In this document: positions 43,154 to 59,965 of the stretch, in pieces
Numbering within the stretch: position 1 is the first letter of the stretch
Layout of the letters: each line of letters opens with the position of its first letter
DNA from: Methylotenera versatilis 7
GTDB taxonomy: Bacteria > Pseudomonadota > Gammaproteobacteria > Burkholderiales > Methylophilaceae
DNA: 64,000 nt
Direction of reading: 5' to 3'
NCBI RefSeq assembly: GCF_000799165.1
Contig: NZ_JUGF01000002.1
Span: 1,178,001-1,242,000, forward strand
Notes under the pieces: model-generated
What the model saw: the letters and a program-made list of their open reading frames with translations, nothing else
The model's database searches: none
Told to the model about the DNA's origin: nothing
Position numbers and translations under genes: made by a program

Positions 43154-43283
43154 AGTAAAAATGATACATCAATTATGATGAATTTTACTAGTTAATACGC
43201 TAATTAAGACATTTCCCCCGTTTTATATATAGTTTTTACAAAAAAAACTTGACCTTTCCTTATTAAATGATAAAAATGATAAT
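43154..43283 (+). promoter_or_regulatory. Two copies of a TGATAAAAATGATA-type motif in the ompA/lipoprotein gap
   Basis: Copy 1 (43154-43168) reads AGTAAAAATGATACA; copy 2 (43268-43283) reads TGATAAAAATGATAAT, preceded by TTCCTTATTAAA. Copy 2 lies 64 bases before the lipoprotein ATG. Near-identical sequences occur at 48542-48557 and 59949-59965. The motif is a direct repeat TGATA-N4-TGATA. It may be an activator site or part of an alternative promoter; TTGACC at 43249-43254 may be a -35 box. Confidence 0.45.
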
Positions 43284-43346: not shown

Positions 43347-45422
43347 ATGGCGATAAAATTAAAGTACAAAGTTATTCCATTGCTTCTATCATCATTATTG
43401 GTGGTCGGTTGCAGTAGTGTGAACAGTGATGGCTTGGGTGCGATTGTTAAACCAACACCAACACCAACACCAACACCAACACCAACACCAACACCAACAC
43501 CAACACCAACACCAACACCAACACCAACACCAACACCAACACCAACACCAACACCAACGCCAACGCCAACGCCAACGCCAACGCCAACGCCAACGCCATT
43601 AACATTGTTGGATCCAATCATTGGTGCCGGTGGGTTGTTGCCGCTAACATCGCCTACAGGAGGCTCACAAACGGTATTAGATCCACTTGTTGGTCCTGGT
43701 GGTTTGTTGCCATTGACTTCAGGTAATACTACTGGCACGACAGGCGCACTATTAGATCCAGTCATTGGCCCTGATGGCTTGTTGCCACTGACTACTCCAG
43801 CTGGGGGTTCACAAACGTTATTAGATCCAGTCATTGGTCCTGACGGCTTGTTACCACTGACTAGCGGAAACACTGGAACTAGCTCACCATTAGATGGTTT
43901 GCTTGCTCCGGCGACAGGTTTATTGGCACCAGTTACTGGCTTGCTAACTCCAGTGACAGGCGCACTAGCTCCAGTTACTGGTGGATTATTAGATCCAATC
44001 GTCGGTCAGGGTGGTTTATTACCATTAACCACGCCAGCTGGTGGGCCATCAGCCTTATTAGATCCAGTTATTGGACCTACAGGCTTACTGCCACTTACTA
44101 GTGGAAGCGCAGGTACCAATTCTCCAGTTACGGATTTGTTAGCGCCAGTAACAGGCTTGCTCACTCCAGTGACGGGCGCACTAACTCCGGTTACTGGTGG
44201 ATTGCTTGACCCAATCGTCGGTCAAGGTGGTTTACTGCCATTAACTACGCCAGCTGGCGGAACTTCGGCACTGTTAGACCCTGTTATTGGCCCTACAGGC
44301 TTACTACCACTTACTAGTGGCAGTGCTGCTGGTGCCAGCTCACCGGTCACGGACTTGTTAGCGCCAGTAACAGGATTACTAGGTGGTAATGGTGCGGGTA
44401 ACGTCCTTGCCCCAATAACTGGATTATTGGGCGGTGCTGGCACAGGCGACTTGCTTGCTCCAGTGACTGGCTTGTTAGGCGGCAATGGCGCAGGAGATTT
44501 ACTAGCTCCAGTGACTGGATTATTAGGTGGTAGCGGTGCCGGTGACTTACTAGCACCCGTAACAGGCTTGCTAACTCCAGTGACAGGCGCACTAGCTCCG
44601 GTTACTGGTGGATTATTGGACCCAATCGTCGGTCAGGGTGGTTTATTACCATTAACCACACCAGTTGGGGGAACTTCAGCACTGTTAGATCCGGTTATTG
44701 GGCCTACAGGTTTACTACCACTCACAAGTGGAAGCGCGGGCACCAGTTCACCAGTTACTAACTTATTAGCACCAGTAACAGATTTACTAGGTGGTGCTGG
44801 CACAGGCGACTTGCTTGCTCCAGTGACTGGTTTGTTAGGCGGCAATGGCGCGGGGGATTTGCTAGCTCCGGTGACGGGATTGTTGGGTGGCAATGGTACG
44901 GGTGATTTACTTGCGCCAGTCACTGGCTTATTGGGCGGCAATGGCGCGGGAGATTTACTAGCTCCGGTGACGGGATTGTTGGGTGGCAATGGTACGGGTG
45001 ACTTACTTGCCCCTGTAACCGGTTTATTAGGCGGTAGTGGTGCTGGCGACTTGCTTGCACCAGTGACTGGTCTATTAGCTGGTAGTGGGGCAGGGAATGT
45101 ACTGGCACCAGTAACAGGTTTATTAACTCCAGTGACAGGCGCGCTAGCTCCGGTTACTGGTGGATTGTTAGACCCAATCGTCGGTCAAGGTGGTTTGTTG
45201 CCATTAACTACACCAGCTGGTGGATCTTCAGCACTGTTAGATCCAGTTATTGGACCTACAGGCTTACTGCCACTTACTAGTGGCAGTGCTGGTACTAGCT
45301 CACCAGCTACAAACTTATTAGCACCAGTCACTGGCTTATTAGGCGGCAATGGTGCGGGTAATGTCCTTGCTCCAGTCACTGGATTATTAGCGCCGGTGAC
45401 AGGTTTATTGGGTGGATTGTAA
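43347..45422 (+). CDS. Repeat-rich surface lipoprotein with a (Pro-Thr)24 stalk
   Basis: A 691-residue protein. The lipobox LLVVGC places the lipidated Cys at 22, with Ser at +2, so outer-membrane sorting is expected. Residues 36-83 are 24 Pro-Thr pairs. The rest is tandem repeats of two kinds: 12 copies of a unit ending GLLPLT (LLDPVIGPTGLLPLTSG and variants), and many copies of LLAPVTGLLGGNGAGD. After residue 35 there is no Lys, Arg, His, Glu, Cys, Met or aromatic residue; Asp is the only charged residue. Such composition suits an extended, protease-resistant surface fibre. It is the first gene of a cassette with a TpsB transporter and a cupin-8 oxygenase, and an intrinsic terminator separates it from the transporter, so it is probably made in excess. 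It lacks the TPS domain of classical TpsA proteins. Confidence 0.8.
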   Translation: MAIKLKYKVIPLLLSSLLVVGCSSVNSDGLGAIVKPTPTPTPTPTPTPTPTPTPTPTPTPTPTPTPTPTPTPTPTPTPTPTPTPLTLLDPIIGAGGLLPLTSPTGGSQTVLDPLVGPGGLLPLTSGNTTGTTGALLDPVIGPDGLLPLTTPAGGSQTLLDPVIGPDGLLPLTSGNTGTSSPLDGLLAPATGLLAPVTGLLTPVTGALAPVTGGLLDPIVGQGGLLPLTTPAGGPSALLDPVIGPTGLLPLTSGSAGTNSPVTDLLAPVTGLLTPVTGALTPVTGGLLDPIVGQGGLLPLTTPAGGTSALLDPVIGPTGLLPLTSGSAAGASSPVTDLLAPVTGLLGGNGAGNVLAPITGLLGGAGTGDLLAPVTGLLGGNGAGDLLAPVTGLLGGSGAGDLLAPVTGLLTPVTGALAPVTGGLLDPIVGQGGLLPLTTPVGGTSALLDPVIGPTGLLPLTSGSAGTSSPVTNLLAPVTDLLGGAGTGDLLAPVTGLLGGNGAGDLLAPVTGLLGGNGTGDLLAPVTGLLGGNGAGDLLAPVTGLLGGNGTGDLLAPVTGLLGGSGAGDLLAPVTGLLAGSGAGNVLAPVTGLLTPVTGALAPVTGGLLDPIVGQGGLLPLTTPAGGSSALLDPVIGPTGLLPLTSGSAGTSSPATNLLAPVTGLLGGNGAGNVLAPVTGLLAPVTGLLGGL
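43452..43595 (+). repeat. Hexanucleotide tract (CCAACA)17(CCAACG)7
   Basis: 144 bases of perfect hexamer repeat: 17 copies of CCAACA (43452-43553), then 7 of CCAACG (43554-43595). Each hexamer adds one Pro-Thr pair, so slippage would change stalk length without breaking the frame. The two homogeneous blocks suggest separate expansions. Confidence 0.95.
43596..45422 (+). repeat. Degenerate tandem repeats encoding LLDP...GLLPLT and LLAPVTGLLGG units
   Basis: Most of the gene body is built from related units at DNA level: six pairs of the GLLPLT unit, with runs of about 48-base LLAPVTGLLGG units between them, longest at 44780-45110. Wording at third codon positions varies, so the units are old or under purifying selection at protein level rather than freshly duplicated. 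Confidence 0.85.
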
Positions 45423-45442
45423 TTAATCTTAACCACTAATCG

Positions 45443-45479
45443 AACCTTAGCGCTGCTTAACAGCGTTAAGGTTTTTTTA
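45443..45479 (+). terminator. Intrinsic terminator between the lipoprotein and transporter genes
   Basis: AACCTTAGCGCTG (45443-45455) pairs with CAGCGTTAAGGTT (45461-45473), 13 bp with one G-U pair, then a T-run. It ends 23 bases before the transporter ATG, with no room for a separate promoter apart from the hairpin itself, so the transporter and oxygenase are likely made by read-through. Confidence 0.85.
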
Positions 45480-45502
45480 TATTAAGTCTAAGAGTTAATC
45501 GC

Positions 45503-47206
45503 ATGATAAAACGCCTCACATCTTTTTTTCAATTTGTTATCTTAGTATCTAGCTTTGTATTTGCTCAGCAGGTATATGCAAACGCTAACCCCGAAGATAC
45601 TTTACCTAAAGTTGAAAGGGCAAAGCCAACTGCAAGTAGTCCTGTTGATATCAAACGCCCAACGGAGTCGGTTGACCCTAAATTACAACAGCTATTGGCA
45701 ACCAAGTTGACTGTTGAAAACTTTGATATTCAAGGAGTTAAATCAATTCCATTTGAAGAAGTGAACGCCGTTTTTAAGCCTTATTTAAATCAATCACTCA
45801 CTTTAAAGGAAGTGATTGATTTAGCGAGTAATGTCACAAAGATTTATGCAAATAAAGGTTATCCACTATCGTTTGCCTATATTCCAGCTCAAGATTTTAG
45901 TCATCACAAAGTGACTGTTTTAGTGATCGAGGGCTACGTTGGCACTGTCAGTCTCAAGGGAGATTTTGGGCCGACAGAAAGTAAAATTCGCTCTATTGTT
46001 GAGCCTATGCTGCAGGAAAAACCGTTAACCCAAAAGACGATGGAGCGCAGCAATAGTTTGCTGTCATTGGTACCTGGTTTGGCTATTCAGGCGTCGTTAC
46101 AGTTACCAGAAAGACGCGATGGCGCATCGGAATTAAAGATTGTAGCCAGCAGAAAATTAATATCAGCAGGCCTTAATCTTGAATCTTTAAAACCTGTAGC
46201 GCGTGCGGTTATAACAGTACAGGGTGGCGGCCAAACTGCAGCCGCAGAGCAGTTTTCATTTTCCACATTAGCATCGCAACAAGATGAGGAATATTACGCT
46301 GCTTCCTATTCGCAAATGATTGGCAGCAAAGGTTTAGTGTTAAGGCTTAATAGCTCCATGTATCAGGGGAATTCTGATGGCCAATTGCCGTCTGGTCTAA
46401 CTCGGGATATCTTTTCCTTAAGGTTAAGCTCATCGTTAAGCTATCCTATATTGATTAATCGGAATGAAAGTTTAATTGGCACCGTTGCTTTATCGACAAC
46501 AAATTACGAAGATAAAATACAGAGTCAGGATACATTTCGCAGCATTACCCAAAAAACAAATTCAAGAGCACTGTCAGTAGGCGCTGCGTACTCTACGTTA
46601 AGCGCATCGCAGAGTCGGCGCTTGCAGCTTACTTTAACCAAAGGCCTTGATATTTTAGGGGCGTCAAAAAGTGCTAAAACCAATTTTGCTTTTAATCAGA
46701 AACTGGTTAATCCTGACAATATCGATTTCACAAAGTTAAATCTTTCTCTCTCACAAAATAATGCTTTTTCATACGGATTAGGTACGGCTATATCGCTTAA
46801 TGCACAGTATAGCGATAATCAATTGCCATTGTCTGAACGTATCCAGTTTGGTGGGTATCAATATGGCCGCGCATTTGCACCTGGCTTTTTATCTGGAGAT
46901 TCCGGCTGGGGTTTAGCGCTTGAGCTGAATAAACAGTTGCCAGTGTTTTATGATTTTTCATATTTCAAGTTGGTGGCGATTCAGCCTTATGCCTTATTCG
47001 AATCAGCCCGAACGATTCAAAATTTCGAGGCAATTGATCGCACGAATATTGAACGCATGACATCGATAGCACTGGGTTTGCGCCTTAAAGCAGACGTAGG
47101 TGGCACGGTGGATCTTTCACTAGCAAAAGCACTCAGTAGTAAAAGCCTGAATAATGCGCCTAATGATGTGACGTTTAGCATGAACTATGGATTACTATTG
47201 AATTGA
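45503..47206 (+). CDS. TpsB-type outer-membrane transporter (ShlB/FhaC/HecB family)
   Basis: A 567-residue Omp85-superfamily protein of two-partner secretion. A signal peptide ends near residue 26 (VYA). A POTRA domain lies at about 72-148 (TVENFDIQGVKSIPFEEV to VLVIEGYVGTVSLKG), followed by a second POTRA-like part and the 16-strand ShlB barrel from about 215. The loop 6 region shows GGYQYGRAF with SGDSGW. The C-terminus ends NYGLLLN, lacking the usual terminal Phe. TpsB proteins export one partner encoded next to them; here the only candidate is the upstream repeat lipoprotein, which has no classical TPS domain. It could therefore be a lipoprotein-surface exporter. This is inference from gene order. 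Confidence 0.88.
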   Translation: MIKRLTSFFQFVILVSSFVFAQQVYANANPEDTLPKVERAKPTASSPVDIKRPTESVDPKLQQLLATKLTVENFDIQGVKSIPFEEVNAVFKPYLNQSLTLKEVIDLASNVTKIYANKGYPLSFAYIPAQDFSHHKVTVLVIEGYVGTVSLKGDFGPTESKIRSIVEPMLQEKPLTQKTMERSNSLLSLVPGLAIQASLQLPERRDGASELKIVASRKLISAGLNLESLKPVARAVITVQGGGQTAAAEQFSFSTLASQQDEEYYAASYSQMIGSKGLVLRLNSSMYQGNSDGQLPSGLTRDIFSLRLSSSLSYPILINRNESLIGTVALSTTNYEDKIQSQDTFRSITQKTNSRALSVGAAYSTLSASQSRRLQLTLTKGLDILGASKSAKTNFAFNQKLVNPDNIDFTKLNLSLSQNNAFSYGLGTAISLNAQYSDNQLPLSERIQFGGYQYGRAFAPGFLSGDSGWGLALELNKQLPVFYDFSYFKLVAIQPYALFESARTIQNFEAIDRTNIERMTSIALGLRLKADVGGTVDLSLAKALSSKSLNNAPNDVTFSMNYGLLLN

Positions 47207-47243
47207 TCGTGTGTATTTGAATATCCATGAAAGATGATTGTTA

Positions 47244-48287
47244 ATGAATCTACCGCAAAAAAATAGTAGTCAGGCAGGCATTCAACCAGTTTTTGATGAC
47301 AGCTGGCGCGTATGGATTGCGCAGAACTTAATGTTAGGTGCGACAGTAGAAAGTCTGCAAGAGATACTTGTTGCTAACGGGTTTAGTAAAATGGTCGCAA
47401 TAAGAGAAATTGGGTTAGCGCAAGCCAGCCCATATTTACATGCAGCCAGCCAGCTTAGTAACAGGCTGGCAAAGCGCGAATGGGCGCTGCAGATTCACCG
47501 CAAGCTAGATAAGTTATTGCCCAACTGGGGGCAAATACAACGTATTCACAAACTTAGTCGCACGGATTTCTTTTATCATTTCTATTCTACTAATCGGCCT
47601 GTGATTATTACAGGCATGATGGATGATTGGCCTGCACTAAAAAAATGGACGCCCGATTATTTCAAAACGCATTTTGGCGAGCGCATTGTAGAGGTGCAGG
47701 CTAAGCGTAACGAGAATCAACGCTATGAAATTGAAAGCCAGCAACATAAGCAGAAAATCGCGCTGGCTGATTTTGTTGATACGATTGTGAATGGCGGTGA
47801 AACGAATGATTTGTATCTTACCGCTAACAATAGTGGGCATAACGCAACTGCGTTACGCGAGCTTTGGGATGATGTCGTGCAGATTCCAGAGTATCTTGAT
47901 GGCAATAGTGCACAGCGTGGTTTTTTATGGTTTGGCCCTAAAGGGACAATTACACCGTTACATCACGATTTGACTAATAACTTTATGGCGCAGGTCTATG
48001 GTAAAAAACTGGTCAGATTGATTCAGTCTAACGAGCTGCCTTATGTATATAACCACCTGCATTGCTATAGCGAGGTCGATCTTGATAACATTGATTACGA
48101 TAGATTTCCGCTGATGCGCCATGTCAATATCATCGATTGTGAGTTAAATGCCGGAGAGATATTGTTTTTACCCGTCGGTTGCTGGCATTACGTTCGCGGG
48201 CTTGATATCAGCATGACCATGTCGTTTACAAACTTTTTGTTTGATAATGATTTTTCATCGATGTATAAAACCTATCATGCAGTTTGA
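47244..48287 (+). CDS. Cupin-8/JmjC-like Fe(II)/2-oxoglutarate oxygenase
   Basis: A cytoplasmic protein of 347 residues from ATG 47244 (an in-frame TTG lies two codons earlier). After a helical N-terminal region of about 105 residues comes the cupin-8 fold. NRPVIITGMMDDWPALKKW is the family start, and the metal triad is His240-x-Asp242 (PLHHD) and His315 (GCWHYVRG). A Lys near 251 (GKKLVRL) may bind 2-oxoglutarate. Relatives include the human asparagine hydroxylase FIH and bacterial peptide hydroxylases. Lying directly behind the TpsB gene, it may hydroxylate the repeat protein (Asp, Asn or Pro residues) before export. That is an inference; the target is not shown by sequence. A hairpin overlaps the stop. 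Confidence 0.85.
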   Translation: MNLPQKNSSQAGIQPVFDDSWRVWIAQNLMLGATVESLQEILVANGFSKMVAIREIGLAQASPYLHAASQLSNRLAKREWALQIHRKLDKLLPNWGQIQRIHKLSRTDFFYHFYSTNRPVIITGMMDDWPALKKWTPDYFKTHFGERIVEVQAKRNENQRYEIESQQHKQKIALADFVDTIVNGGETNDLYLTANNSGHNATALRELWDDVVQIPEYLDGNSAQRGFLWFGPKGTITPLHHDLTNNFMAQVYGKKLVRLIQSNELPYVYNHLHCYSEVDLDNIDYDRFPLMRHVNIIDCELNAGEILFLPVGCWHYVRGLDISMTMSFTNFLFDNDFSSMYKTYHAV

Positions 48288-48298
48288 TAGGTTTATTT
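48268..48298 (+). terminator. Terminator of the lipoprotein-transporter-oxygenase cassette
   Basis: AAACCTATCA (48268-48277) pairs with TGATAGGTTT (48285-48294) around a 7-base loop, followed by ATTT. The stem includes the oxygenase stop codon. Confidence 0.7.
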
Positions 48299-48541
48299 AC
48301 GCTGATACACCATTCAACCGATAACTAGTGCATGAGACTTTAGACAATCCAGAAGCGATTTAGCTTGCTGGCCGATTGATGCCAGACTTTAAAGTTAACG
48401 TCATAAAATCCTGCCGATTTTCACAAGCATAATGTTCAGCCATTTGTAGAGTATGCCGTCCTTACGCTGCTGAATTTCAACCGATATTAACATCATCACT
48501 CAGTGGGAAAATTCGCCTTCGTGCAAATATTCCTTTTAAAA
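48299..48541. other. Intergenic region without a recognised gene
   Basis: About 240 bases between the oxygenase cassette terminator and the motif before the 65-residue gene. Only very short frames without ribosome binding sites were found. No clear hairpin or known RNA family was seen. Confidence 0.5.
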
Positions 48542-48557
48542 TGATAAAAATGATAGT
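48542..48557 (+). promoter_or_regulatory. TGATAAAAATGATA motif before the 65-residue protein gene
   Basis: TGATAAAAATGATAGT, preceded by TTCCTTTTAAAA, matches copy 2 in the lipoprotein upstream region over about 26 of 30 bases. It lies 92 bases before the ATG at 48650. Confidence 0.45.
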
Positions 48558-48649: not shown

Positions 48650-48847
48650 ATGAGTGAAGCAGATATGGAAAAAATGATAATCCCTGTGAAGTTAAGTGAT
48701 TTGGATACGTTGGCCTACTACATCGTAGAGATTGATGAGTCAAAGGGTAATCGTAAGGCTACACAGGCATTTATCGATCACGCGCATAAAAAGATTATTA
48801 GCATGCTGGGTGAGCATACTCACCTGATATACCAGCCCGACGATTAA
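48650..48847 (+). CDS. Small orphan protein
   Basis: A 65-residue acidic soluble protein of no recognised family (MIIPVKLSDLDTLAYYIVEID, then NRKATQAFIDHAHKKI). AAGGAAAGGGTGG precedes the ATG, a good ribosome binding site. It lies alone between the surface cassette and the tad locus and carries the shared upstream motif, so it may belong to the same regulon. A small regulator or adaptor is possible but unproven. Confidence 0.65.
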   Translation: MSEADMEKMIIPVKLSDLDTLAYYIVEIDESKGNRKATQAFIDHAHKKIISMLGEHTHLIYQPDD

Positions 48848-48978: not shown

Positions 48979-50634
48979 TTATATCACCAGTGAACCAGAG
49001 TTGGTCAGAATCACATCATCTACGGTGACATCCATATTGGCGATACTGATGCCGAGTATTTTAAGTAATGGGTCTAAAAGCAGTTTGCTAATTGAAGTAA
49101 GTAAAGGTGCAACAACAGTACTAACAACTTCATTAACTAATGCAGTCAAAACGCCAAGCAGATCAAGAGCGCCACCAAGTAGCTCAACTTTTAAGGCGCC
49201 TGGTTGTGAAAATAACTGCTCAAATGTGTTGCTTAGAGAGCCATTGACAGTCAATGTTTGTGGGAGGTGATCTTTTACGGGCCTTTCTATTTGCATGATC
49301 GAAGTCCTTGCCGTAGATGAAGGCTGAGGTATATTTAAACCGATATCGGCCAATGGTACTAAACCAGCGAGCAATGAGATTCTGGCAGGCCCAGATCCTG
49401 CTGTATTGGTCAGTGAAGTAGTAAGCAAGCTGGTATTGGTTTCAAAAGCAATATCAGTGGTAGTGTTGCTTCCCTTAATGCTACGTAATGCTGCGCTTCC
49501 ATTAGCCGCTTGAACATTTAGAGCCAAGTCGACTTTAGCAAGACCAAGCACGTTTACAAGTACAGCAACGCCAACCCTTACTTGAGCCGTTTTGGCGAAT
49601 GTGCAAGCCTCAGCATTTTCAACTGCGGGCGGTGGGCCAATGGCCATTTGTGCGGGCTCAATCACATTTACAATGGCATTAACACTGACCAAACCTGGCA
49701 AGTTGACTGCCAATGGGATAGTCACGGCATTCTGACCGTTAGACACACTAGCAATCATATTGACCAAGTTCAGCACGTTTAGCTTGGCATTCAACGCCTC
49801 AGCCTGTGAGTTTTGATTGACATTGAGAAGCTGACCCAAACTGATTTGCGTATTGTGAGCTGCTCCTACAACTAATTTCGATAAAGCCACATTAACCAAG
49901 TCGGGCACAGCGTTCTCAGGTAACTTAACTGCCTCAGAGACTAATGTCAGCAATTGACCCGCACTAAATTGCGTATCCAGTAACTCATCTACAGACAGCA
50001 CAGATCCTTCCACTTTAATCAAATCGGCTAGGGTAATATTCGTGTTAGCCAATCCTTGGTAAGAAACCAAGTCCAACTTGATAGTTGAGCCTAGCAATCC
50101 GCTCAATAAGCCGTCAAGTAGGAGAGAGTCTTCTGTATTAAGCGTTAAAGCCGTGGTGCCAATATTAAAGGCTGCAATGGAAGCATTAGGTAAAGACACT
50201 GCTTCTGCGAAAAGTGTCACGTCGTTACCAAAAACACCTTTTGCAATTAAACTGGCGGGTACTTTTTTAGTCACTTTTACATGCACAGCCCGTGCTGAAC
50301 CGTCTGCAGTAAAGTGACGTCGTCCTGCAACGGTACTGACGCTACCCATTTCTACAATATTCGGTGCGTTAGCGAGATTTTCAGTATAACCATTTGCCAA
50401 CGCGGCCTGGTTGGCTCTGGTAAACACATCGCCTAAGCTGGGGCTACAGCCGCCGAGCCCTCTAGCTGCTTCAATGGCACTCATATCGGCAACGGTTTGT
50501 AGTTGTCGCTTAACCATCCATAACCGCGTACTATCAATTACCAGTGCGGTAAATATAACCAATAATAATAAGGTGAGGGCACCTAGAATACCAATTGCAC
50601 CGCGCTGAAAATGCCTATTTGATTTTGCGCGCAT
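48979..50634 (-). CDS. tadG: Tad pilus assembly protein TadG
   Basis: A 551-residue protein at the end of the tad operon. An N-terminal helix (about 13-32) is followed by the TadE/TadG signature (STRLWMVKRQLQTVADMSAIEAARG). The long remaining part is predicted to be periplasmic and is rich in Leu, Val, Asn and Thr with no von Willebrand A domain, unlike some TadG proteins. TadG is an envelope component needed for Flp pilus assembly or anchoring. Its start overlaps the end of the DUF3613 gene by 20 bases, so translation is probably coupled. Confidence 0.85.
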   Translation of the reverse strand: MRAKSNRHFQRGAIGILGALTLLLLVIFTALVIDSTRLWMVKRQLQTVADMSAIEAARGLGGCSPSLGDVFTRANQAALANGYTENLANAPNIVEMGSVSTVAGRRHFTADGSARAVHVKVTKKVPASLIAKGVFGNDVTLFAEAVSLPNASIAAFNIGTTALTLNTEDSLLLDGLLSGLLGSTIKLDLVSYQGLANTNITLADLIKVEGSVLSVDELLDTQFSAGQLLTLVSEAVKLPENAVPDLVNVALSKLVVGAAHNTQISLGQLLNVNQNSQAEALNAKLNVLNLVNMIASVSNGQNAVTIPLAVNLPGLVSVNAIVNVIEPAQMAIGPPPAVENAEACTFAKTAQVRVGVAVLVNVLGLAKVDLALNVQAANGSAALRSIKGSNTTTDIAFETNTSLLTTSLTNTAGSGPARISLLAGLVPLADIGLNIPQPSSTARTSIMQIERPVKDHLPQTLTVNGSLSNTFEQLFSQPGALKVELLGGALDLLGVLTALVNEVVSTVVAPLLTSISKLLLDPLLKILGISIANMDVTVDDVILTNSGSLVI

Positions 50635-50929
50635 CTTGTTCTGTCATCTGAGGAATCGGGCGACTGAAGCTTTCCTTATAGCGCTCATATACATTTTGCA
50701 TGACTGGCCCAGAAAGTGTTTGCGCATGTGGAGATGCCTGATTACCAGAGCGTTGTAACTCAAGCCATGTTTGGGTTGCAGGCTCTGAGTTTGCGTCTAA
50801 TAGTTTTGTATTATTTGATGATGAATCCGCGGCAACCTGATTACCACTCTCAAGCTCTTCGGCCTGTATGGCTTGCTGGAAAGCCATTGCCAGCAAAATA
50901 GACATTGCTATTGCAAGTTTCTTATTCAT
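50615..50929 (-). CDS. DUF3613 tad-locus protein
   Basis: A 104-residue exported protein with a signal peptide (1-23, ending IQA). The mature part is polar and holds the family motif ATQTWLELQRSGNQASPHAQTLSG (split) and VMQNVYERYKESFSRPIP. DUF3613 is found beside tad genes in beta- and gammaproteobacteria; its role is unknown. It overlaps tadD by 8 bases and tadG by 20 bases. Confidence 0.85.
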   Translation of the reverse strand: MNKKLAIAMSILLAMAFQQAIQAEELESGNQVAADSSSNNTKLLDANSEPATQTWLELQRSGNQASPHAQTLSGPVMQNVYERYKESFSRPIPQMTEQDARKIK

Positions 50930-51824
50930 AAATTTTGCTCCCTAATTCCATTGAAAGTATTCCCGTGCATACGTCAGATGTGCCTAAACAGACTGCTGTA
51001 TTGGTTTTTTTCTCATCTTCAAATGTAACAGCATGCGTTTCTACATCGCTTGTTTGCGCGGCTTTATTATTTGCATCGGCATCTTGCAACTTGGCTGGTT
51101 GTTCTGTATTGGGTGATGTGTCTTGTTTGATTTGTAGATCTTGCTTGACCTTATTAACTTCTACTTCAGAAAGGTTGTAACGTTTTGCAAATTGATTTGC
51201 TTGGTCAATTTGATTGCTCTTATACAGAAGTGCCAAAAGATTATATTTAGCAAGCTGATTTCTACCATCTAACTCAATAGCAGTTAAATATTCATTGAGT
51301 GATGATTTAAAGTCACCTATCGACATTAAGGAAAATCCATAGTCACTTCTTATTGTGCTGTTTATAGGCGCTAATTTGGCGGCTGCTTTTAAATAGTTAA
51401 CAGAGTCTTGGTGTTGACCACGTTGATTGGAGATTAAGCCTAATCCTTGATAGGCAAAGGCGCTGACACAACTTGTTGTTAATTTATTATAAATAGTCGC
51501 TGCTTCGGCTTGTCTGTTCATTTGGCGCAAGCTATTCGCTTTTAGTAACTCAAGCTGGGGTAAATCAATATTAAAAGAGTCGATAAAAGCGAGTGCAGCA
51601 AAGGGCTTTTTTTCGTTTAATAACTGACTAACCATGTTCAAATTAGTATTGTCTTCAGCTGCGAGTTCTGCGCATTTTGAAAGCTGTGTATTCGCTGCAG
51701 CAATTGAAATGTTCGATATTGCCGTCAGCAGGGCGAATGCAAGCAATCTGCTGGTTAGCAAGCGCATGAATAAAACCGTAGTAGTTGTTACCGCTAAAAT
51801 ATTGTTCACCCGGACTGTTTGCAT
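50922..51824 (-). CDS. tadD: Tad assembly TPR protein TadD
   Basis: A 300-residue protein of TPR repeats (about 65-225, such as AFAYQGLGLISNQRGQHQDSV in part and FGFSLMSIGDFKSSLNEYLTAIEL-like stretches). TadD is an outer-membrane lipoprotein pilotin for the secretin in other tad systems. Here the N-terminus is extended: a second Met at residue 20 starts a standard signal peptide (RLLTSRLLAFALLTAISN), so the true start may be ATG 51767. No lipobox Cys is seen at the cleavage site. The C-terminal third is Asn/Thr/Gln-rich and likely disordered. It starts directly after the tadC stop. Confidence 0.8.
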   Translation of the reverse strand: MQTVRVNNILAVTTTTVLFMRLLTSRLLAFALLTAISNISIAAANTQLSKCAELAAEDNTNLNMVSQLLNEKKPFAALAFIDSFNIDLPQLELLKANSLRQMNRQAEAATIYNKLTTSCVSAFAYQGLGLISNQRGQHQDSVNYLKAAAKLAPINSTIRSDYGFSLMSIGDFKSSLNEYLTAIELDGRNQLAKYNLLALLYKSNQIDQANQFAKRYNLSEVEVNKVKQDLQIKQDTSPNTEQPAKLQDADANNKAAQTSDVETHAVTFEDEKKTNTAVCLGTSDVCTGILSMELGSKIYE

Positions 51825-52715
51825 TTATAACTGTCCTTTTAGTGCATCAGAGATACCGATAAAACCTGGCCCGGCAATAAAAATGAGCAATGCTGGGAAC
51901 ATGAAAACAATCATCACAATACTCATTTTGGCCGATAGCTTACTTACATATTCACGCAGGCTGGAAAACTGACGCGTTTCAATCAGAGCAATGTATTGAC
52001 CTAGCGATGCTTGTACATTTCCGCCGTAGCGTGTCACCTGCGCAAGTATGGCAACAGTATCGGTCACTTCTTGAATATTGAGTGCTTTAGCCATATTCAT
52101 TAACGCATCAGATTGATCTTGACCGGCATTTAAATTTAACAACACGCGTTGCAATTGCCTTGAAAAATGTGGAAATAAGTTGCCCGTTTGCTCAACCAAT
52201 ATAATTAATGCGTGTTCAAGCGATAAGCCAGAATTAAACAGCATGCGTAACATATGTAAAAATGGCACAAGCTCTTTTACAATCGCTTTTTCAACAAACG
52301 CTGCGCGCCTGCGCAAAATCATATTGGCCAAAACAAATAGTGATGCAAAAGAAAATACGCCCATTAACAACGCGTTCTGATTGTCATTTCCCAAAGTGAC
52401 CAGCAGGAAATATATCGTTATTGAAGCTACGATGGGTAGAATCCTGCCAAATCCCCAAAACAGCATGCGTGCATGGGGTGTGTCCCAACCTGCTTTAACT
52501 AGTAGTTGGCTTATTTCACCACCATTTTCAAAGCCAGGTTTTAACCGCTTACGAAGCCATGATTCTGATTGGTTCGATGTCTGTTGCTGACTTTGAAGAG
52601 CCTCTTCAAATCGATCGGATAGTTTGTTATTTTTACGCATGCTCATGATATCAATGAGTAAAAACACCGCACTGGCTAGCATTAACACAATAAATATAAG
52701 CGTCAGAGAATTCAT
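51825..52715 (-). CDS. tadC: Tad inner-membrane platform protein TadC
   Basis: A 296-residue member of the type II secretion F family, with helices near 1-22, 95-135 and 265-290. The cytoplasmic T2SF domain (about 150-275) shows ELVPFLHMLRMLFNSGLSLEHAL and NIQEVTDTVAILAQVTRYGGN. It pairs with TadB to form the platform that the TadA ATPase works on. Spacing to tadB is 13 bases. Confidence 0.92.
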   Translation of the reverse strand: MNSLTLIFIVLMLASAVFLLIDIMSMRKNNKLSDRFEEALQSQQQTSNQSESWLRKRLKPGFENGGEISQLLVKAGWDTPHARMLFWGFGRILPIVASITIYFLLVTLGNDNQNALLMGVFSFASLFVLANMILRRRAAFVEKAIVKELVPFLHMLRMLFNSGLSLEHALIILVEQTGNLFPHFSRQLQRVLLNLNAGQDQSDALMNMAKALNIQEVTDTVAILAQVTRYGGNVQASLGQYIALIETRQFSSLREYVSKLSAKMSIVMIVFMFPALLIFIAGPGFIGISDALKGQL

Positions 52716-52728
52716 AATTTGGCGACTT

Positions 52729-53622
52729 TCATATACTTTTTAACATGCGCCAGAACAGAAAAACACCCGTTACTTGCATACCAGCCGTTATCCATAATAG
52801 GGTAACGCCACTTGAGCTAGCCGTCATCATGCTTAAATACCCAGGGTTCATTAACATCATGAATAGCAGGATTGAAATAGGCGTTAAGGTTAGAATTATT
52901 GCTGATACCTTTGTTTCGCCCGTCATGGCAGCCAGTTCACGCCTTGCCTGATCCTGATTGTTAATCATTTGCATCACGCTGGTCAGCATCTCTTTGGGTG
53001 AGCTGCCATAGTTATTACTCATTTTGATACTGAGCGCAATTATTTGAAGCTCATTAATCCGATGCAATGTCGCTTCCTTAACCAATGTCTCGGTAAATCC
53101 TGCTCCTAAATCTGTCGCTCTTACTACTCTGTCTAGCAATAGCCTCAGTGGAGTGGGTGTTTCTTGAGCGACTAGCCTGATTGCTGATTCAAGGCTTCGG
53201 CCTGTACCCAAGCTGCGGATAAGCTGATCAATAAAGAGCGGTATTTGTGCAATCATTAGTTTTTTATGCTTATTTTGGCGATAAATAAAATAAATGAGCG
53301 AAATTACAGCAAATGCAAGCACGATCAATGCAGTGACTTTAAGGCTAAAGAAAATATAAGCGATGATGAAAACTAAGGTAATTAGTAGTAAAAATCTGCC
53401 AATCCATTCGCGCTGAAAATTAAATCCAAAATAATTGGATAAGACATTCGCGATCCAGGCACTAAGCTCTGAGAGTTTTGAGTGTTTATCGGATGGTTTG
53501 ATTTCTACGGGCAAGGCTGCATCAAAGCGACTTTTTACTTTTTTATCTGCAATAGATTGCTTATTTGCTAATAAATAAACAAAAATCACGCAAAGTAATA
53601 ATGGAAGCATCAGTAGCCACAT
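52729..53622 (-). CDS. tadB: Tad inner-membrane platform protein TadB
   Basis: A 297-residue T2SF-family protein and partner of TadC. It has an N-terminal helix, paired helices near 75-110, the cytoplasmic T2SF part (QIPLFIDQLIRSLGTGRSLESAIRLVAQET in parts, NNYGSSPKEMLTSVMQMI) and a C-terminal helix pair. Order tadA-tadB-tadC is standard. Spacing to tadA is 10 bases. Confidence 0.92.
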   Translation of the reverse strand: MWLLMLPLLLCVIFVYLLANKQSIADKKVKSRFDAALPVEIKPSDKHSKLSELSAWIANVLSNYFGFNFQREWIGRFLLLITLVFIIAYIFFSLKVTALIVLAFAVISLIYFIYRQNKHKKLMIAQIPLFIDQLIRSLGTGRSLESAIRLVAQETPTPLRLLLDRVVRATDLGAGFTETLVKEATLHRINELQIIALSIKMSNNYGSSPKEMLTSVMQMINNQDQARRELAAMTGETKVSAIILTLTPISILLFMMLMNPGYLSMMTASSSGVTLLWITAGMQVTGVFLFWRMLKSI

Positions 53623-53632
53623 AGTTAATCTG

Positions 53633-54886
53633 TCAATTACTCTTAAAAAGTGATTTAAGTTTTGGATTCATCGCCGATACTCGGTGGGTTACAAATCGCT
53701 GTTGCTCAACTGAGTAACTATATAGCTCATTGATAACGAATTCATGATCCCGGATACAAACCACTTCAATGATGGATGTGATTTTTCTTTCTCCACTGGT
53801 TAATCGACTGATTTGGATGATGACTTCAACCGAGGCTGCAATCATTTTCCTGAGCGTTAACTCTGCGCCTTGAAAACCCGCAAGACCCGCTAACATTTCC
53901 ATACGTAATAATGCATCGTGCGGATTGTTCGCATGAATAGTACTCATGGAACCTTCATGCCCAGTATTCATGGCTTGCAATACATCAATCACTTCATTAC
54001 TACGAATTTCGCCAAGAATAATGCGGTCTGGACGCATACGTAATGCATTTCTAACCAAGTCACGGGCTGACACCTCACCAGCGCCTTCAAGATTGTTCGG
54101 TCGCGTCTCAAGTCTTATCACATGGTCATGGTTTAGCTGTAATTCAGCTGCATCTTCAATGGTAACAATACGTTGATTGACTGGAATGGAGCGACTTAAC
54201 AGGTTTAACAAAGTCGTTTTACCTGCCCCTGTACCGCCACTCACTAAAATATTGACTTTACTCTCAATCGCACTGAGTAAAAAATCCATCATTTCTCGGT
54301 TAAGGGTTTGAAAGGCGATAAGGTCATGCTCTGTGAAAGGTTCTTTACGAAATTTTCTGATCGAAAGGCACGAGCCATTTAAAGCAAGGGGAGGGATAAT
54401 GATATTAACGCGACTGCCATCGGGTAAGCGGGCATCGACGAGAGGGCTGGACTCATCAACTCTACGTCCAAGTGGTGCCAGGATACGACGAATCACCCGC
54501 AAAACATGATCTTCATCAATAAATCTTAGATTGGTTAACTCTAACTTACCATTTTTCTCAACGAATATGCGGTCTGCACCATTTACCAAAATATCATTAA
54601 TGTATTCGCTCTTGATGAGTTGCTCTAGTGGTCCCCAGCCTGATATTTCGTCAATCATTTCAGAAGTGAGTTTGTTTAAATCATTTAGATTGACCACATA
54701 CTCAATATCCGCGACATATTTCATCACTTTAGCATTGACGTAAGTGCTGATTTGTTGATTGCTCGCTGATGCAATATCAAACTTATCTAACTCGATTTCA
54801 GCAATCAGATAGTTATGCAGCAGGTATTTGATGTCCTGATACTCTATTGAGCTTTTTAGCTCTATTTTATTTGCAGTTAGTCGCAT
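53633..54886 (-). CDS. tadA: Tad secretion ATPase TadA/CpaF
   Basis: Hexameric secretion ATPase of 417 residues that powers Flp pilus assembly. Walker A is GGTGAGKTT at 217-225; the Asp box ITIEDAAELQL-like region, Walker B (RIILGEI) and the His box (GHEGSMSTIHANNP) follow. The N-terminal helical part is as in CpaF. All catalytic motifs are intact. It follows tadZ by 14 bases in the operon. Confidence 0.96.
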   Translation of the reverse strand: MRLTANKIELKSSIEYQDIKYLLHNYLIAEIELDKFDIASASNQQISTYVNAKVMKYVADIEYVVNLNDLNKLTSEMIDEISGWGPLEQLIKSEYINDILVNGADRIFVEKNGKLELTNLRFIDEDHVLRVIRRILAPLGRRVDESSPLVDARLPDGSRVNIIIPPLALNGSCLSIRKFRKEPFTEHDLIAFQTLNREMMDFLLSAIESKVNILVSGGTGAGKTTLLNLLSRSIPVNQRIVTIEDAAELQLNHDHVIRLETRPNNLEGAGEVSARDLVRNALRMRPDRIILGEIRSNEVIDVLQAMNTGHEGSMSTIHANNPHDALLRMEMLAGLAGFQGAELTLRKMIAASVEVIIQISRLTSGERKITSIIEVVCIRDHEFVINELYSYSVEQQRFVTHRVSAMNPKLKSLFKSN

Positions 54887-54900
54887 GGTTCAGCTTTCAG

Positions 54901-56220
54901 CTAGTTTCTTGCAATTAACATATTTTGTAGTTTGGTGATAAAGCCTTTGACGCTTTTTTCTACCTTCACTTCGCCAATGCCGAATAGTTGATGGGCTATT
55001 TGTTTAATGGCTCTCACATAGGTGCTTTTAGGCGAAAATTCAAACATTGATTCACCGGTATTGATGGCGAGTAAACGTAAATGGCCCAATGATGGTAGTT
55101 TGTATAGCAGTGGTATCTCTAGTGATTTTGCAATGCTTTCTGCGTTTGGAATGGCATTTTTCTTGTAACGATCGACAATGAGTTGAGGATTGGGAATTGC
55201 AATCTTTTGCTCACGAATTGATTGCAGAAGATCATAGTTGCGTTTGCAACTAGGCACTGTTTGTTCAACCAAAAATAATGTCGAATTAACGGTTGAAAAT
55301 ACCACTTTCAATAACTCCGTATTGCAAAGTCCGCCATGATTAATGAGTATGTATTTAAAATGACTTTTAAGCGCATGCAATACTAAATAGATTTCGGTTG
55401 GCGTAAGCTCAGCTTCTTCACTATTTTCTGGCATTGGCAGCAGAGTCAATCCTGATGAGTGTTTTGCAAAACCAGTTTGAATTAAGGTTGAGTCTAATCT
55501 GCTACTGTTTTTGATTACATCAAGAAAGTTAAACTTAACTGGAACGCCCATCATTAGCATGATATCTGCGTGTGGAACACCAAGGTCGATTAACAATGTT
55601 GGAGCGGATTCCTGCATCTCAAGTGCAAGATGCATCGCTAATAATGCAGTGCCATCCTCTGCGCGCGCATTTAATAGTGCCGTTACGTGTCCCAGCGCAG
55701 GCTTTTCTGTTTGCTCAAGCACTGGTGTGTGCTTGTTATGTCTGGCAATAATTGCCGAAGTCTCATAAGCCGGCGTGCCTATCTTAATTAGATCACGCGC
55801 ACCTGCCCGCATAATTGGCAGTAACAAAGTATGGTTAATAGTATCAACCAAGCCAATCACTGTTAGTTGTGGTCGGCTATTTAATAGTGACTCTATCATG
55901 GCCAAATCGGCGTTTAATCCTTGTGAAGTCTCATCATTTGAAACTATTCCACCTGATGCTTCTTGCGTCTCAAGGAGAGTGAATATTGCACTGATACCTG
56001 ATGATGCTTCAGCATCAGGCACTAATTCAGTGCTAGAAACTTGCGATAGTAGATGTATTAATACCGCACTTACTTCAACTGAATCAAGTAGGCTATTGAT
56101 GCGCTCTTTATCATCAGGCTCAACAAATATCAAATTGGCTAAACTATCATTTAGGCCATTTAGCCAGCGATAGCAATTGCTTTTGTTTGTGATAACAATG
56201 TAGTTATTTAGCTTGATCAT
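54901..56220 (-). CDS. tadZ: Tad localisation protein TadZ/CpaE, degenerate ATP site
   Basis: A 439-residue MinD/ParA-like protein. An N-terminal receiver-like region ends with VIGLVDTINHTLLLPIMRAGARDLIK at about 124-149. The ATPase-like domain starts near 175, but its Walker A position reads NARAEDGTALLA instead of KGGVGKT, lacking both the deviant Lys and the GK pair. The Walker B-like LLIDLGVPHADIMLMMGV is kept. TadZ places the pilus machine at the pole; a degenerate ATP site suggests a structural role here. Its ATG overlaps the rcpA stop by one base. Confidence 0.87.
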   Translation of the reverse strand: MIKLNNYIVITNKSNCYRWLNGLNDSLANLIFVEPDDKERINSLLDSVEVSAVLIHLLSQVSSTELVPDAEASSGISAIFTLLETQEASGGIVSNDETSQGLNADLAMIESLLNSRPQLTVIGLVDTINHTLLLPIMRAGARDLIKIGTPAYETSAIIARHNKHTPVLEQTEKPALGHVTALLNARAEDGTALLAMHLALEMQESAPTLLIDLGVPHADIMLMMGVPVKFNFLDVIKNSSRLDSTLIQTGFAKHSSGLTLLPMPENSEEAELTPTEIYLVLHALKSHFKYILINHGGLCNTELLKVVFSTVNSTLFLVEQTVPSCKRNYDLLQSIREQKIAIPNPQLIVDRYKKNAIPNAESIAKSLEIPLLYKLPSLGHLRLLAINTGESMFEFSPKSTYVRAIKQIAHQLFGIGEVKVEKSVKGFITKLQNMLIARN

Positions 56221-57587
56221 TATTGCGACATCCCTGTAGATGGCTTTTGCTTGCCATCATTATTGAATAAAAATTCACTAAAAGAGGGTTTGTAATCAGC
56301 GTATCCCTGACCCGGCAATGGCGGTAGTTTTGCATCGCGCGCGATAGGTCTTACCAAGTGAGGCGTAACGATCATCAATAGCTCTTTATCTTCTCTATCG
56401 AATCGTTTCGATTGGAAAAATGCGCCGATGATTGGTAGCTTACCTAAACCCGGAAATTGATCCACATTATTCAGGGCGTTACTGCTTACCATGCCGCTGA
56501 TGACAAAGCTTTCACCGTCAGCCATCGAAACCGAGGTGTCGGTTCGCCTTACTCTAAGCCCCGGAACCGCAACGCCGCCTGTTTGCACTGCATTAGCAAA
56601 GTCAAGCTCACTGACTTCCGGGGATATTTTCATGAATATGCGGTTATTATCAAGCACTGTTGGTGTCAGCATTAAGCGCACACCAAATTCTTTATATTGG
56701 ATACTGACCGAGCTGTCAGCACCGCCGCCTGATCTAATCGGTACAGGGAATTCACCCCCCGCAAGAAAATTGGCTGTTTGGCCAGAAATGGCAGAAAGCG
56801 ATGGCTCTGCCAGCGTGTAAGCAAAACCATTGGATTCAAGAATGCTTAACGTGCCGAGAAATCCAGATTTACTGTTTCCCATGGCAACATTAAATGCGTT
56901 TAGCACAGGTAAAAAGCCTGAAGTACTATTAAATGCAAATGGCTCACCTGAATCTCTTGTAACGCCAGAAAGTGTATTGGGAGAAGATACGGCTAATGCT
57001 CGGGTATCACCATTATTTCTTCCAAGAAAGAGGCCAAACCTTAATACGTTCTTGCGGCTCACTTCTACCACTTTTATATCTATCTGTACGTGATTATCAA
57101 AATTCGATTCGATTGCATCGATGGGCGTTTTGGGATCCTGCTTAAGCGCTGTCATTGCTTGGCTATGCGCTTCCAAAGAATCCGCTTTACCATCAATGCG
57201 TAAAGTATTGCCCGCAGGTTGGATGTCTAGTGTGCTGTTTCCAGAGGCTTTTAACGCCAGTTTTTCCAATGCGTCAGATTGGCTAACCGTTAAATTAATC
57301 TTGGTTGCCGGTTCGCCTGTTTGCTTATTTCCCCATATACTAATCTGAGTAGCGCCTATGGCTTTTGCGGTAATCAACAGCGATTTTGGGCTGAGTATGG
57401 TGACGTTTGCGACCGCTGGATCCGCGATGGCTACCCGGTCAAGCGATTTTTCTTGCTGATAAACCTCTTGTTTGTCTTTTGTAATCGAAATATTCAACTC
57501 GTCAGCCATACTTGTGCCACAAGTTAGGAATGAGCTCAAAATCCCCATACTTAGCAATAATATTGGTTTGAAAGTAGTTTTAATCAT
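56220..57587 (-). CDS. rcpA: Tad secretin RcpA/CpaC
   Basis: Outer-membrane secretin of 455 residues forming the channel for the Flp pilus. A signal peptide ends near residue 28, a BON-like N-terminal domain with VAIADPAVANVTILSPKSL follows, and the secretin domain (about 240-420) carries LSAISGQTANFLAGGEFPVP and GLRVRRTDTSVSMADGESF. The C-terminal tail is polar. Its ATG overlaps the cpaB stop (ATGA). Confidence 0.94.
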   Translation of the reverse strand: MIKTTFKPILLLSMGILSSFLTCGTSMADELNISITKDKQEVYQQEKSLDRVAIADPAVANVTILSPKSLLITAKAIGATQISIWGNKQTGEPATKINLTVSQSDALEKLALKASGNSTLDIQPAGNTLRIDGKADSLEAHSQAMTALKQDPKTPIDAIESNFDNHVQIDIKVVEVSRKNVLRFGLFLGRNNGDTRALAVSSPNTLSGVTRDSGEPFAFNSTSGFLPVLNAFNVAMGNSKSGFLGTLSILESNGFAYTLAEPSLSAISGQTANFLAGGEFPVPIRSGGGADSSVSIQYKEFGVRLMLTPTVLDNNRIFMKISPEVSELDFANAVQTGGVAVPGLRVRRTDTSVSMADGESFVISGMVSSNALNNVDQFPGLGKLPIIGAFFQSKRFDREDKELLMIVTPHLVRPIARDAKLPPLPGQGYADYKPSFSEFLFNNDGKQKPSTGMSQ

Positions 57588-58570
57588 TTTGTACCCTTCG
57601 CAGCAATATTTTTTACCGTCACCAATTCAGTTTTATCGCCAGAGTGGACAGTAATACGTGATGATTGCGCAGCTTGAGTGCTTTTTTTATGTTTAACGGT
57701 AGTGGTGTTGCTCGATGTTGCGTTTTGTACTTTTTCTGTTGGTGCTTTGAGTAGCTCATCATTTTGAATAAAATGGCTATCATATTGATTAGCTTGCGGC
57801 ACAGGATTAAGTTGGGCTGAATCGTCTGCTAATGCAGATGAAGCTAGCGGTTCTTCTCCTCTTAATGCCAATCGTAGTTGCCCGATACTGGCCGCTAACA
57901 TTAATCTTGTGGCATCACTTTCTTTTACCGCCAAAACTGCTGAGCGTGTCGCGCTGCTGGGTTTATCCTGTGGTTTGGATTGTGCTGGATTTAAACTGGT
58001 AGAGATTGGTGTTTGGGTAGAAGAGTCATCAGTCTTGTTAACTTCCTGAATGGTTTCACCAAAACTAATGACGCGTAAATTACTTAAGACCACTTGCGAG
58101 ATACTTCTGCGCTTCATGTCGCGGTCATCATTAGCGAACAATAGTACATCCACAAAATCACCGGGCTTAATGTAGCCACCTACACCAGCAACTTCATCAA
58201 TTTTAACGGCAACTGCGCGTTCGCCGCTTTTGAGTAATTGTGCGGCAGGACCTAATTGCTGCAAGCTGCTACTTAGCACCGCTGTATTGGCAGCGATGTT
58301 TTGATTAAGCACTCTGCCAACAACTGGCGTTGTACTGGCAAAACCAGCAGAGTTAAATTGCGGTACTTGCTCAATACGCAGATCTAACTCATTTAATCGC
58401 TCGCCTGCCTTCGCATCACGATTCACTACGACTTGCGGAACATTGACTATCTTTGGTGGTGCCGCGACAGCAGCGGCTTCAGATTTACTCATCTGATAGC
58501 CAAACCAGCCAACAAACAGGGCGCCAATAAATAGCAGAATGGCAATTGCTCTTAAAAGATTCGTATTCAT
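57584..58570 (-). CDS. cpaB: Tad assembly protein CpaB/RcpC
   Basis: A 328-residue protein with one N-terminal membrane helix (about 6-24) and a SAF domain (about 50-115, DAKAGERLNELDLRIEQVP), then the CpaB C-terminal region with VDEVAGVGGYIKPGDFVDVLLF. The last 70 residues are polar and rich in Ser/Thr/Lys. CpaB/RcpC is a periplasmic partner of the secretin and may bind peptidoglycan. It is 124 bases downstream of tadE, so an internal promoter is possible. Confidence 0.92.
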   Translation of the reverse strand: MNTNLLRAIAILLFIGALFVGWFGYQMSKSEAAAVAAPPKIVNVPQVVVNRDAKAGERLNELDLRIEQVPQFNSAGFASTTPVVGRVLNQNIAANTAVLSSSLQQLGPAAQLLKSGERAVAVKIDEVAGVGGYIKPGDFVDVLLFANDDRDMKRRSISQVVLSNLRVISFGETIQEVNKTDDSSTQTPISTSLNPAQSKPQDKPSSATRSAVLAVKESDATRLMLAASIGQLRLALRGEEPLASSALADDSAQLNPVPQANQYDSHFIQNDELLKAPTEKVQNATSSNTTTVKHKKSTQAAQSSRITVHSGDKTELVTVKNIAAKGTK

Positions 58571-58694
58571 CAGTACAGTCTCTTCGCCTACGTTAACAAT
58601 ACAAGCATTAACAATTTAAGTGATTGATAATGCTTACCAAAAAAATTTAAATAACCACATTTATCTAAAGCTATAAATTTATAGATGGTCTTAA

Positions 58695-59195
58695 TTACAC
58701 CAGTCTCATTACCGCCGACCCTTGAAGATCGCCTGTAGTGGAATATATTGCCCCTATCCCAGGGATGGTGAGCAGTGGTATCAGGGGATTCCCAATATAA
58801 TTGGGGTAAAGCACGCGTACAGTTAAAGTGTTATTAGCATAAGTGACAACAACGTTGCTGTTATTCGTGCCTAATACTTGGTCACGTGCTTTGTTTGGCA
58901 GCCATTGAAGTGTGTTGCCTACGGTTTCACTCACTCTAAGTCTAAGGGCATCTTGATATGCAGAATCATTCGCAAATGCTTGATGGTCGACGGATATGGC
59001 TGATCTTGCGCCTTCGTTAGCGGCATGATGAAAAGAAGTTTTCAATAAGAAAATGATGGAATAACTGACAATTGCATAAAACAAGGTGAAAAAAATCAGA
59101 AACACGAGTGAGAACTCAATTGCTGCCGCACCCAGTTGAAACTTAACTGCAATTTTGTTTTTTTTAAAATCCAGAATCTGCATTAAATTTTCCAA
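58695..59195 (-). CDS. tadE: Tad minor pseudopilin TadE
   Basis: A 166-residue protein with a short cytoplasmic part, then GAAAIEFSLVFLIFFTLFYAIV at about 22-43, the TadE signature with Glu as in processed pseudopilins, and a periplasmic domain. The prepilin peptidase TadV encoded just upstream would process it. It lies 31 bases after tadV. Confidence 0.9.
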   Translation of the reverse strand: MENLMQILDFKKNKIAVKFQLGAAAIEFSLVFLIFFTLFYAIVSYSIIFLLKTSFHHAANEGARSAISVDHQAFANDSAYQDALRLRVSETVGNTLQWLPNKARDQVLGTNNSNVVVTYANNTLTVRVLYPNYIGNPLIPLLTIPGIGAIYSTTGDLQGSAVMRLV

Positions 59196-59226
59196 TGTTT
59201 ATTATTAATTATTTTAAGCTTAGAAC

Positions 59227-59948: not shown

Positions 59949-59965
59949 TTGATAAAAATGATACT
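59949..59965. promoter_or_regulatory. TGATAAAAATGATA motif in the flp/regulator gap
   Basis: TTGATAAAAATGATACT, with a nearby extra TGATA at 59944-59948. It lies about 40 bases before flp and about 197 before the HTH-receiver gene. It shares its 14-base core with copies at 43268 and 48542. Confidence 0.45.

Follow-up and report, generated by a model that had tools for sequence, protein, structure and literature searches.

The 64,000-nucleotide (nt) stretch of the Methylotenera versatilis 7 genome analysed here in full (contig NZ_JUGF01000002.1, positions 1,178,001 to 1,242,000; hereafter the window) carries a repeat lipoprotein gene followed by the gene of a TpsB-type outer-membrane transporter, and comparison across genomes gives good support to these two genes as a conserved unit and to their frequent company with Tad/Flp pilus genes. 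Judging from sequence, we hold it to have somewhat better than even chances that the two products form a dedicated surface-export pair which works with the Tad/Flp pilus, is regulated together with it and serves adhesion. A preliminary description of the region had proposed a cassette of three co-oriented genes, the third coding for an oxygenase; these genes are real, the oxygenase gene ending at 48287 and not, as given there, at 48298 (11 bases too far).

43347–45422, + strand: repeat lipoprotein gene, 691 amino acids (aa), with a lipobox (VVG-C22), a Pro-Thr stalk and two repeat types
43451–43598, + strand: hexamer ACCAAC, 24.7 copies with 99% matches, coding for the (PT)n stalk
45442–45474, + strand: intrinsic terminator between the lipoprotein and tpsB genes (14 pairs, 6 of them GC, and a T-run)
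45503–47206, + strand: TpsB-type outer-membrane transporter, 567 aa, of the lipoprotein-linked group
47244–48287, + strand: cupin_8/JMJD5-like Fe(II)/2-oxoglutarate (2OG) oxygenase, Cupin_8 match at 1.2e-40

The partner had been described as a lipoprotein with a Pro-Thr stalk and Gly/Leu/Pro/Val/Thr repeats, and this is borne out: behind the lipobox cysteine (C22) the (PT)n stalk leads into 12 DPxxGxxGLLPLT units and then 15 LAPVTGLL units, the mature protein of 670 aa containing no Arg, a single Lys and 95 Pro. The two-partner secretion (TPS) domain was not matched in the Pfam scan of this protein, and NCBIfam returned weak low-complexity matches only. Behind the lipid anchor the stalk varies, being Pro-Thr here, collagen-like GATG in loci L033, L042 and L043, Gly/Thr/Asp (GGTD) in L034 and Gly-rich (poly-G) or Asn-Pro in other relatives, and it is apparently a swappable part of the lipoprotein. 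The ACCAAC array is near-perfect and stalk length probably changes from strain to strain in steps of 6, with the frame kept. A fold for the lipoprotein was sought in its structure model and discarded, the model being of too poor quality (predicted local distance difference test, pLDDT, 41.2).

The second gene likewise proved to be what had been claimed for it. Its product matches POTRA_2 (3.7e-18) and ShlB (3.6e-12), with a single POTRA_2 above the cut-off and a second POTRA that is probably present, being visible to our reading in the AlphaFold2 model alone (pLDDT 81.9, predicted template-modelling score 0.75). The POTRA region matches CdiB and TpsB4, and the closest solved fold to the model is CdiB (6wim, E 6.2e-26, template-modelling score 0.61 on the query), with FhaC, BamA and TamA matched as well. 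The conserved L6-loop motif of TpsB barrels is RGY; by eye, the consensus of the relatives reads FGRGYxPG against YGRAFAPG in the window protein. Neither the transporter nor the oxygenase found a match in the NCBIfam scan.

TpsB orthologues were gathered on score alone from 187 family, 399 order and 398 phylum genomes (cut-off 1e-60 in the phylum sample) and from a plasmid collection, and the surroundings were read for 30 loci of the clade that holds the window transporter. These loci derive from 13 Methylophilaceae genomes, 10 genomes of the order, 5 further genomes of the phylum sample and two of five Cupriavidus/Caballeronia records (Cupriavidus metallidurans and Caballeronia insecticola), and they represent seven families: Methylophilaceae (13 loci), five more of the same order and one (f55, perhaps that of Pseudomonas) from another order of the class. 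There are 31 locus identifiers for the 30 loci, L044 and L045 being a single genome. The controls are 22 family loci (20 hand-chosen other Methylophilaceae TpsB loci together with L046 and L089, the source of both TPS query sequences) and 26 stretches with 27 other ShlB matches from 15 genomes outside the family. A tree of 41 TpsB proteins, from which L041 and L044/L045 were left out as broken or partly masked, separates 28 lipoprotein-linked sequences from 13 others on a branch with 100/100 support; L089, L075 and other rows are flagged as long-branched. Plasmid-borne TpsBs of Azospirillum and Thalassospira were tried as members of the lipoprotein-linked group and rejected, as they fall outside it, the Thalassospira protein having a haemagglutinin as its partner.

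Read by eye, 29/30 loci across the seven families have a repeat lipoprotein no more than about 5 kb away from the clade TpsB, the exception being L037, whose contig stops about 280 nt upstream of tpsB; a fixed and stricter rule finds one at 19 of the 31 locus identifiers, versus none of the 48 other TpsB loci. Four of the five proteins of other families that were scanned match Collagen_mid (PF15984). The fifth, L070:5672-6508, is similar in composition, has no obvious lipobox and sits between a lipoprotein gene and tpsB. In the 398-genome phylum sample, for which the TpsB and PF15984 searches were treated as one draw (same size and handles), PF15984 was found in 12 genomes, the clade TpsB in 13 and both in 11, and in every one of these 11 they are no more than 1.3 kb apart; G917 has PF15984 only, and G000 and G053, both Methylophilaceae, have the TpsB only. 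Shared ancestry is ignored in the Fisher association tests. The co-occurrence that the preliminary description expected of its three families thus holds for lipoprotein and TpsB (11 of the 12 PF15984 genomes, all adjacent) and fails for the oxygenase, and its view of a lipidated partner that lacks a TPS domain agrees with the lipobox, the unmatched domain and the linkage conserved at 29/30 loci.

On the usual view, a TPS domain is what a TpsB transporter recognises in its partner. The 30 clade loci yielded no TPS-domain gene (29 were searched by tblastn with two TPS queries, the window by domain scan); one is present at 20 of the 22 other Methylophilaceae TpsB loci, two of which supplied the queries, and at 15 or more of the 26 other TpsB stretches of the outside genomes, the latter count being a lower bound because two queries miss diverse TPS domains. 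The transporter could still be an ordinary TpsB that serves a TPS-domain protein encoded elsewhere, as its typical fold and POTRA would allow. The window genome holds three ShlB-family transporters and two TPS-domain proteins, each of the latter adjoining its own TpsB, so that the third transporter is left without a conventional partner; together with the 0/30 count, this makes an ordinary TpsB with an unlinked client very unlikely, and an unlinked TpsA was disfavoured as partner on the same ground. TpsB-dependent display of a lipoprotein devoid of a TPS domain is the most likely reading of these sequences. The classical systems of this genome, each a TpsB with a long TPS-domain protein, are at L089:7048-15162 and L046:2413-8604.

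The preliminary description went further and had the oxygenase hydroxylate the repeats before or during export. Several features speak for such a three-part system: the likelier start of the gene, ATG 47244 (the other candidate is TTG 47238), lies just 37 nt past the tpsB stop with no terminator-like site reported between them; the HxD...H triad noted earlier is indeed intact (H242-x-D244, H317); the repeats offer Asp, Asn and Pro as candidate residues; and the enzyme has by eye no signal peptide, while a Sec substrate passes the cytosol first. The genomic distribution argues the other way. At 1e-4 in tblastn the oxygenase has no match in the other 29 clade loci, so that the three genes stand together in the window genome only; besides its own gene, the 187 family genomes gave one weak match (5e-23), with none in 185 of them at E 1e-3, and 200 phylum genomes gave no further match at 1e-30. 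The closest solved relative is JMJD5 (2.7e-39), with which the enzyme shares the triad and from which it differs in 98 N-terminal residues beyond the match; JMJD5 is named an arginyl hydroxylase, and the mature lipoprotein next door contains no Arg; its Asp, Asn or Pro residues may nevertheless be hydroxylated. Relatives with 27 to 32% identity, in the 4 named-plasmid records inspected of 35 matched, occur in other contexts (two by non-ribosomal peptide synthetase genes, one by a biosynthetic-looking set, one by a 2OG oxygenase and a radical S-adenosylmethionine gene), with no annotated TpsB beside them in these 4. We therefore regard the three-part cassette, which is not conserved, as quite improbable; the oxygenase looks like a local add-on and not a part of the conserved unit.

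Next to the pair the window carries a pilus island that, like the terminator, the regulators and a direct-repeat element common to them, had been overlooked in the preliminary description.

48979–59724, − strand: Tad locus with TadG-like, DUF3613, TadD-like, TadC, TadB, CpaF and TadZ/CpaE genes and, further, secretin CpaC, CpaB/RcpC, TadE and TadV
50615–50929, − strand: DUF3613 protein of the Tad locus (104 aa), flanked by the TadD-like and TadG-like genes
59731–59910, − strand: Flp-type pilin, 59 aa, by sequence pattern
60162–60776, + strand: MerR/BldC-type helix-turn-helix (HTH_17) fused to a receiver domain, by domain scan
60776–62698, + strand: PAS-domain histidine kinase, also matching HNOBA
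62793–63197, + strand: single-domain response regulator, by domain scan

Pfam supports the prepilin peptidase, CpaB, secretin, TadZ, CpaF and TadE, and the TadD-like gene is named from TPR matches and position; TadB and TadC are presumed from position, and the 59-aa open reading frame (ORF) we take to belong to the Flp pilin family. Tad/Flp genes occur near 16/30 clade loci (L034 being scored on CpaE and CpaF alone), 3/13 in Methylophilaceae and 13/17 outside, versus none of the 48 other TpsB loci (0/22 in the family, 0/26 in outside genomes). In the same 15 outside genomes they are near 11 of 15 clade loci versus 0/26 other TpsB stretches. These figures, and the matches of the TpsB model to BamA and TamA, could also mean that the transporter helps to assemble the Tad machine (secretin, pilus tip or OmpA-like protein), with the lipoprotein as a cofactor or bystander. 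Yet the lipoprotein accompanies the transporter at 29/30 loci, including 13 of the 14 stretches without Tad genes, the fourteenth being L037 with its contig end, and we consider a role in Tad assembly unlikely. With the established Tad/Flp (type IVc) pilus loci the window shares the Tad gene set and a pilin; to our knowledge, no description of the Tad components includes the lipoprotein-TpsB pair.

The same regulator trio adjoins the pair in L034-L036, L038, L039 and L045, and in L035, L036, L038 and L039 it does so with Tad genes absent nearby; among the family controls, L090 gave one match to a generic receiver protein. In the HTH-receiver protein, HTH_17 is above its cut-off and MerR falls short of it (27.5 bits versus 28.2). 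In relatives the direct-repeat element precedes one gene of a trio of this type. Three copies in the window may bear on the regulation of the island.

43267–43281, + strand: ATGATAAAAATGATA, the direct-repeat element ahead of the lipoprotein gene, with TTGAC 18 nt upstream
48541–48555, + strand: exact copy, about 95 nt upstream of a 65-aa ORF
59949–59963, + strand: copy with 1 mismatch, in the gap that separates the Flp pilin and HTH-receiver genes

The element contains 9-bp direct repeats. Its 16-base form with up to 2 mismatches has 4 sites in the window versus 0.14 expected, and with up to 1 mismatch it has 3 sites in the 2.5 Mb genome, all inside the island, versus 1 for the reversed-pattern control. 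With up to 2 mismatches, Methylophilaceae relatives carry it upstream of the lipoprotein gene (L033-L036, L038-L040 and L044), ahead of a regulator gene or at its start (L034, L035, L036, L038, L039 and L045) and, in L033, 27 nt upstream of the pilin; autoregulation of the trio is suggested by the sequences. The 528 kb of clade loci contain 24 such rows, all in Methylophilaceae, some of them overlapping by 9 bases and two lying inside drawn ORFs (window 48665 and L038 4025, the latter a long-start ORF), versus 3 in the 342 kb of family controls. Of 19 sites taken from these rows, 11 have a TTGAC at a distance of exactly 18 nt on the upstream side, and the element may thus belong to a promoter, serve as a regulator site, or do both. 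Promoter-like sites as such are no more frequent than expected (12 found versus 13.5). Head-to-tail binding to 9-bp direct repeats is described for the MerR-like regulator BldC (PMC5859096). The island appears to share with the BldC family a MerR-like HTH and 9-bp direct repeats; unlike in BldC, a receiver domain is attached to the HTH, a PAS kinase is encoded alongside, and the sites are putative. We infer that the HTH-receiver protein may bind the repeats.

That the repeats, the transporter and the pilus are functionally unrelated neighbours might be argued from the ease with which fast-evolving low-complexity proteins are misread as kin. Co-occurrence and adjacency across families, the 0/48 Tad count in the controls and the confinement of the element to the island make such a coincidence hardly credible. 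On the export pair working with the pilus, as we prefer to read the locus, the PAS kinase and the BldC-like HTH-receiver protein would act on the 9-bp repeats that precede the lipoprotein gene and on those located between the pilin and regulator genes, and fibre and pilus would thereby be switched together. The lipoprotein would be made in excess over the transporter, because a terminator separates the two genes. This terminator was also considered as a general feature 3' of the lipoprotein gene and rejected, a terminator-like hairpin being present in just 11 of 22 corresponding gaps of the relatives, where two gaps exceed 1 kb, one hairpin is weak (L041) and the L070 gap ends at the second repeat gene and not at tpsB. 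The lipoprotein would cross by Sec, be lipidated and arrive at the outer membrane, where the TpsB barrel would thread its repeat chain through or set it on the outside with no need of a TPS domain; there, by analogy with BCAL1524 of the Burkholderia cepacia complex, a disordered Gly/Leu/Pro/Thr chain on its swappable stalk could promote cell-cell or cell-surface adhesion beside the Tad pili, with the oxygenase as an accessory of this strain.

Several observations weigh against this scheme. No Tad genes were seen within the stretches fetched at 14/30 clade loci, 10 of the 13 Methylophilaceae loci among them, and the element (up to 2 mismatches) was found at no clade locus outside Methylophilaceae, nor in L037, L041, L042 and L043. 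PF15984 was not matched in any of the 12 Methylophilaceae lipoproteins at E 0.01, so that their kinship with the proteins of other families is argued from the lipobox, the LAPVT repeats and the gene position; the structure model of the lipoprotein is uninformative, and G434 and G463 hold extra PF15984 genes distant from the clade TpsB. As to the Burkholderia counterparts, BCAL1522, the transporter gene, is not named in the induced list in the available part of PMC7970998, and localisation of BCAL1524 in outer-membrane vesicles does not prove surface exposure.

Collagen_mid lipoproteins outside Methylophilaceae are already known and have been noted beside the flp locus of B. cenocepacia. In the parts of the sources available to us, the PF15984 lipoproteins of the B. 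cepacia complex are described as putative adhesins, bcal1520, 1522, 1523 and 1524 may be one operon adjoining that of the flp pilus, and BCAL1522 is listed as an exported heme utilization-related protein (PMC10224339); BCAL1520, 1523 and 1524 are induced together with flp genes upon contact with host-membrane vesicles (PMC7970998), and BCAL1524 is found in outer-membrane vesicles, its deletion lowering autoaggregation (PMC10303873). The terms 'ShlB' and 'hemolysin' have no occurrence in PMC10224339, nor 'two-partner' and 'TpsB' in PMC10303873, and in a literature mostly outside subscription journals we found no text in which the outer-membrane protein encoded beside these lipoproteins is called a TpsB. 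Locus L066 has the same gene order as bcal1522-1524, a transporter gene of 1686 nt and gaps of 144 and 40 nt, and from this agreement in order, length and gaps we infer that BCAL1522 very likely belongs to the clade TpsB group. The window thus resembles the B. cepacia complex in having a repeat lipoprotein (there BCAL1523 and BCAL1524) by an outer-membrane protein gene (BCAL1522) and an flp operon, and differs in that Methylophilaceae lipoproteins lack the PF15984 match. With type Vb two-partner secretion (FhaB/FhaC, CdiA/CdiB) it shares a POTRA TpsB barrel whose gene adjoins that of a long repetitive protein; the partner here is a lipoprotein without the TPS domain (PF05860) and the TpsB falls in a separate tree group. 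As the domain is missing, we treat the pair as a variant that acts like a two-partner system and not as a member of that class.

Taken at its widest, the proposal would be that a separate TpsB lineage exports lipidated fibres devoid of TPS domains and, in a number of proteobacterial families, shares one surface machine with Tad pili, with BldC-like co-switching with the pilin in Methylophilaceae and an acquired oxygenase that modifies the fibre in the window strain; in this full form it is possible but doubtful. If the pairing is true, a TpsB group tied to TPS-less lipoproteins would imply that recognition can follow a different rule and that lipoproteins may have a path onto the outer surface; the collagen-like putative adhesins, a widespread class, would gain a transporter, and both would be tied to Tad pili.

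Two neighbouring genes complete the picture of the island. The 65-aa ORF (48650–48847, + strand) has no Pfam match, and the exact copy of the element upstream makes it a possible third target of the island's regulator. On the other side, a gene divergent from that of the lipoprotein also adjoins the pair in L033, L034 and L044:

41849–43003, − strand: OmpA-family protein

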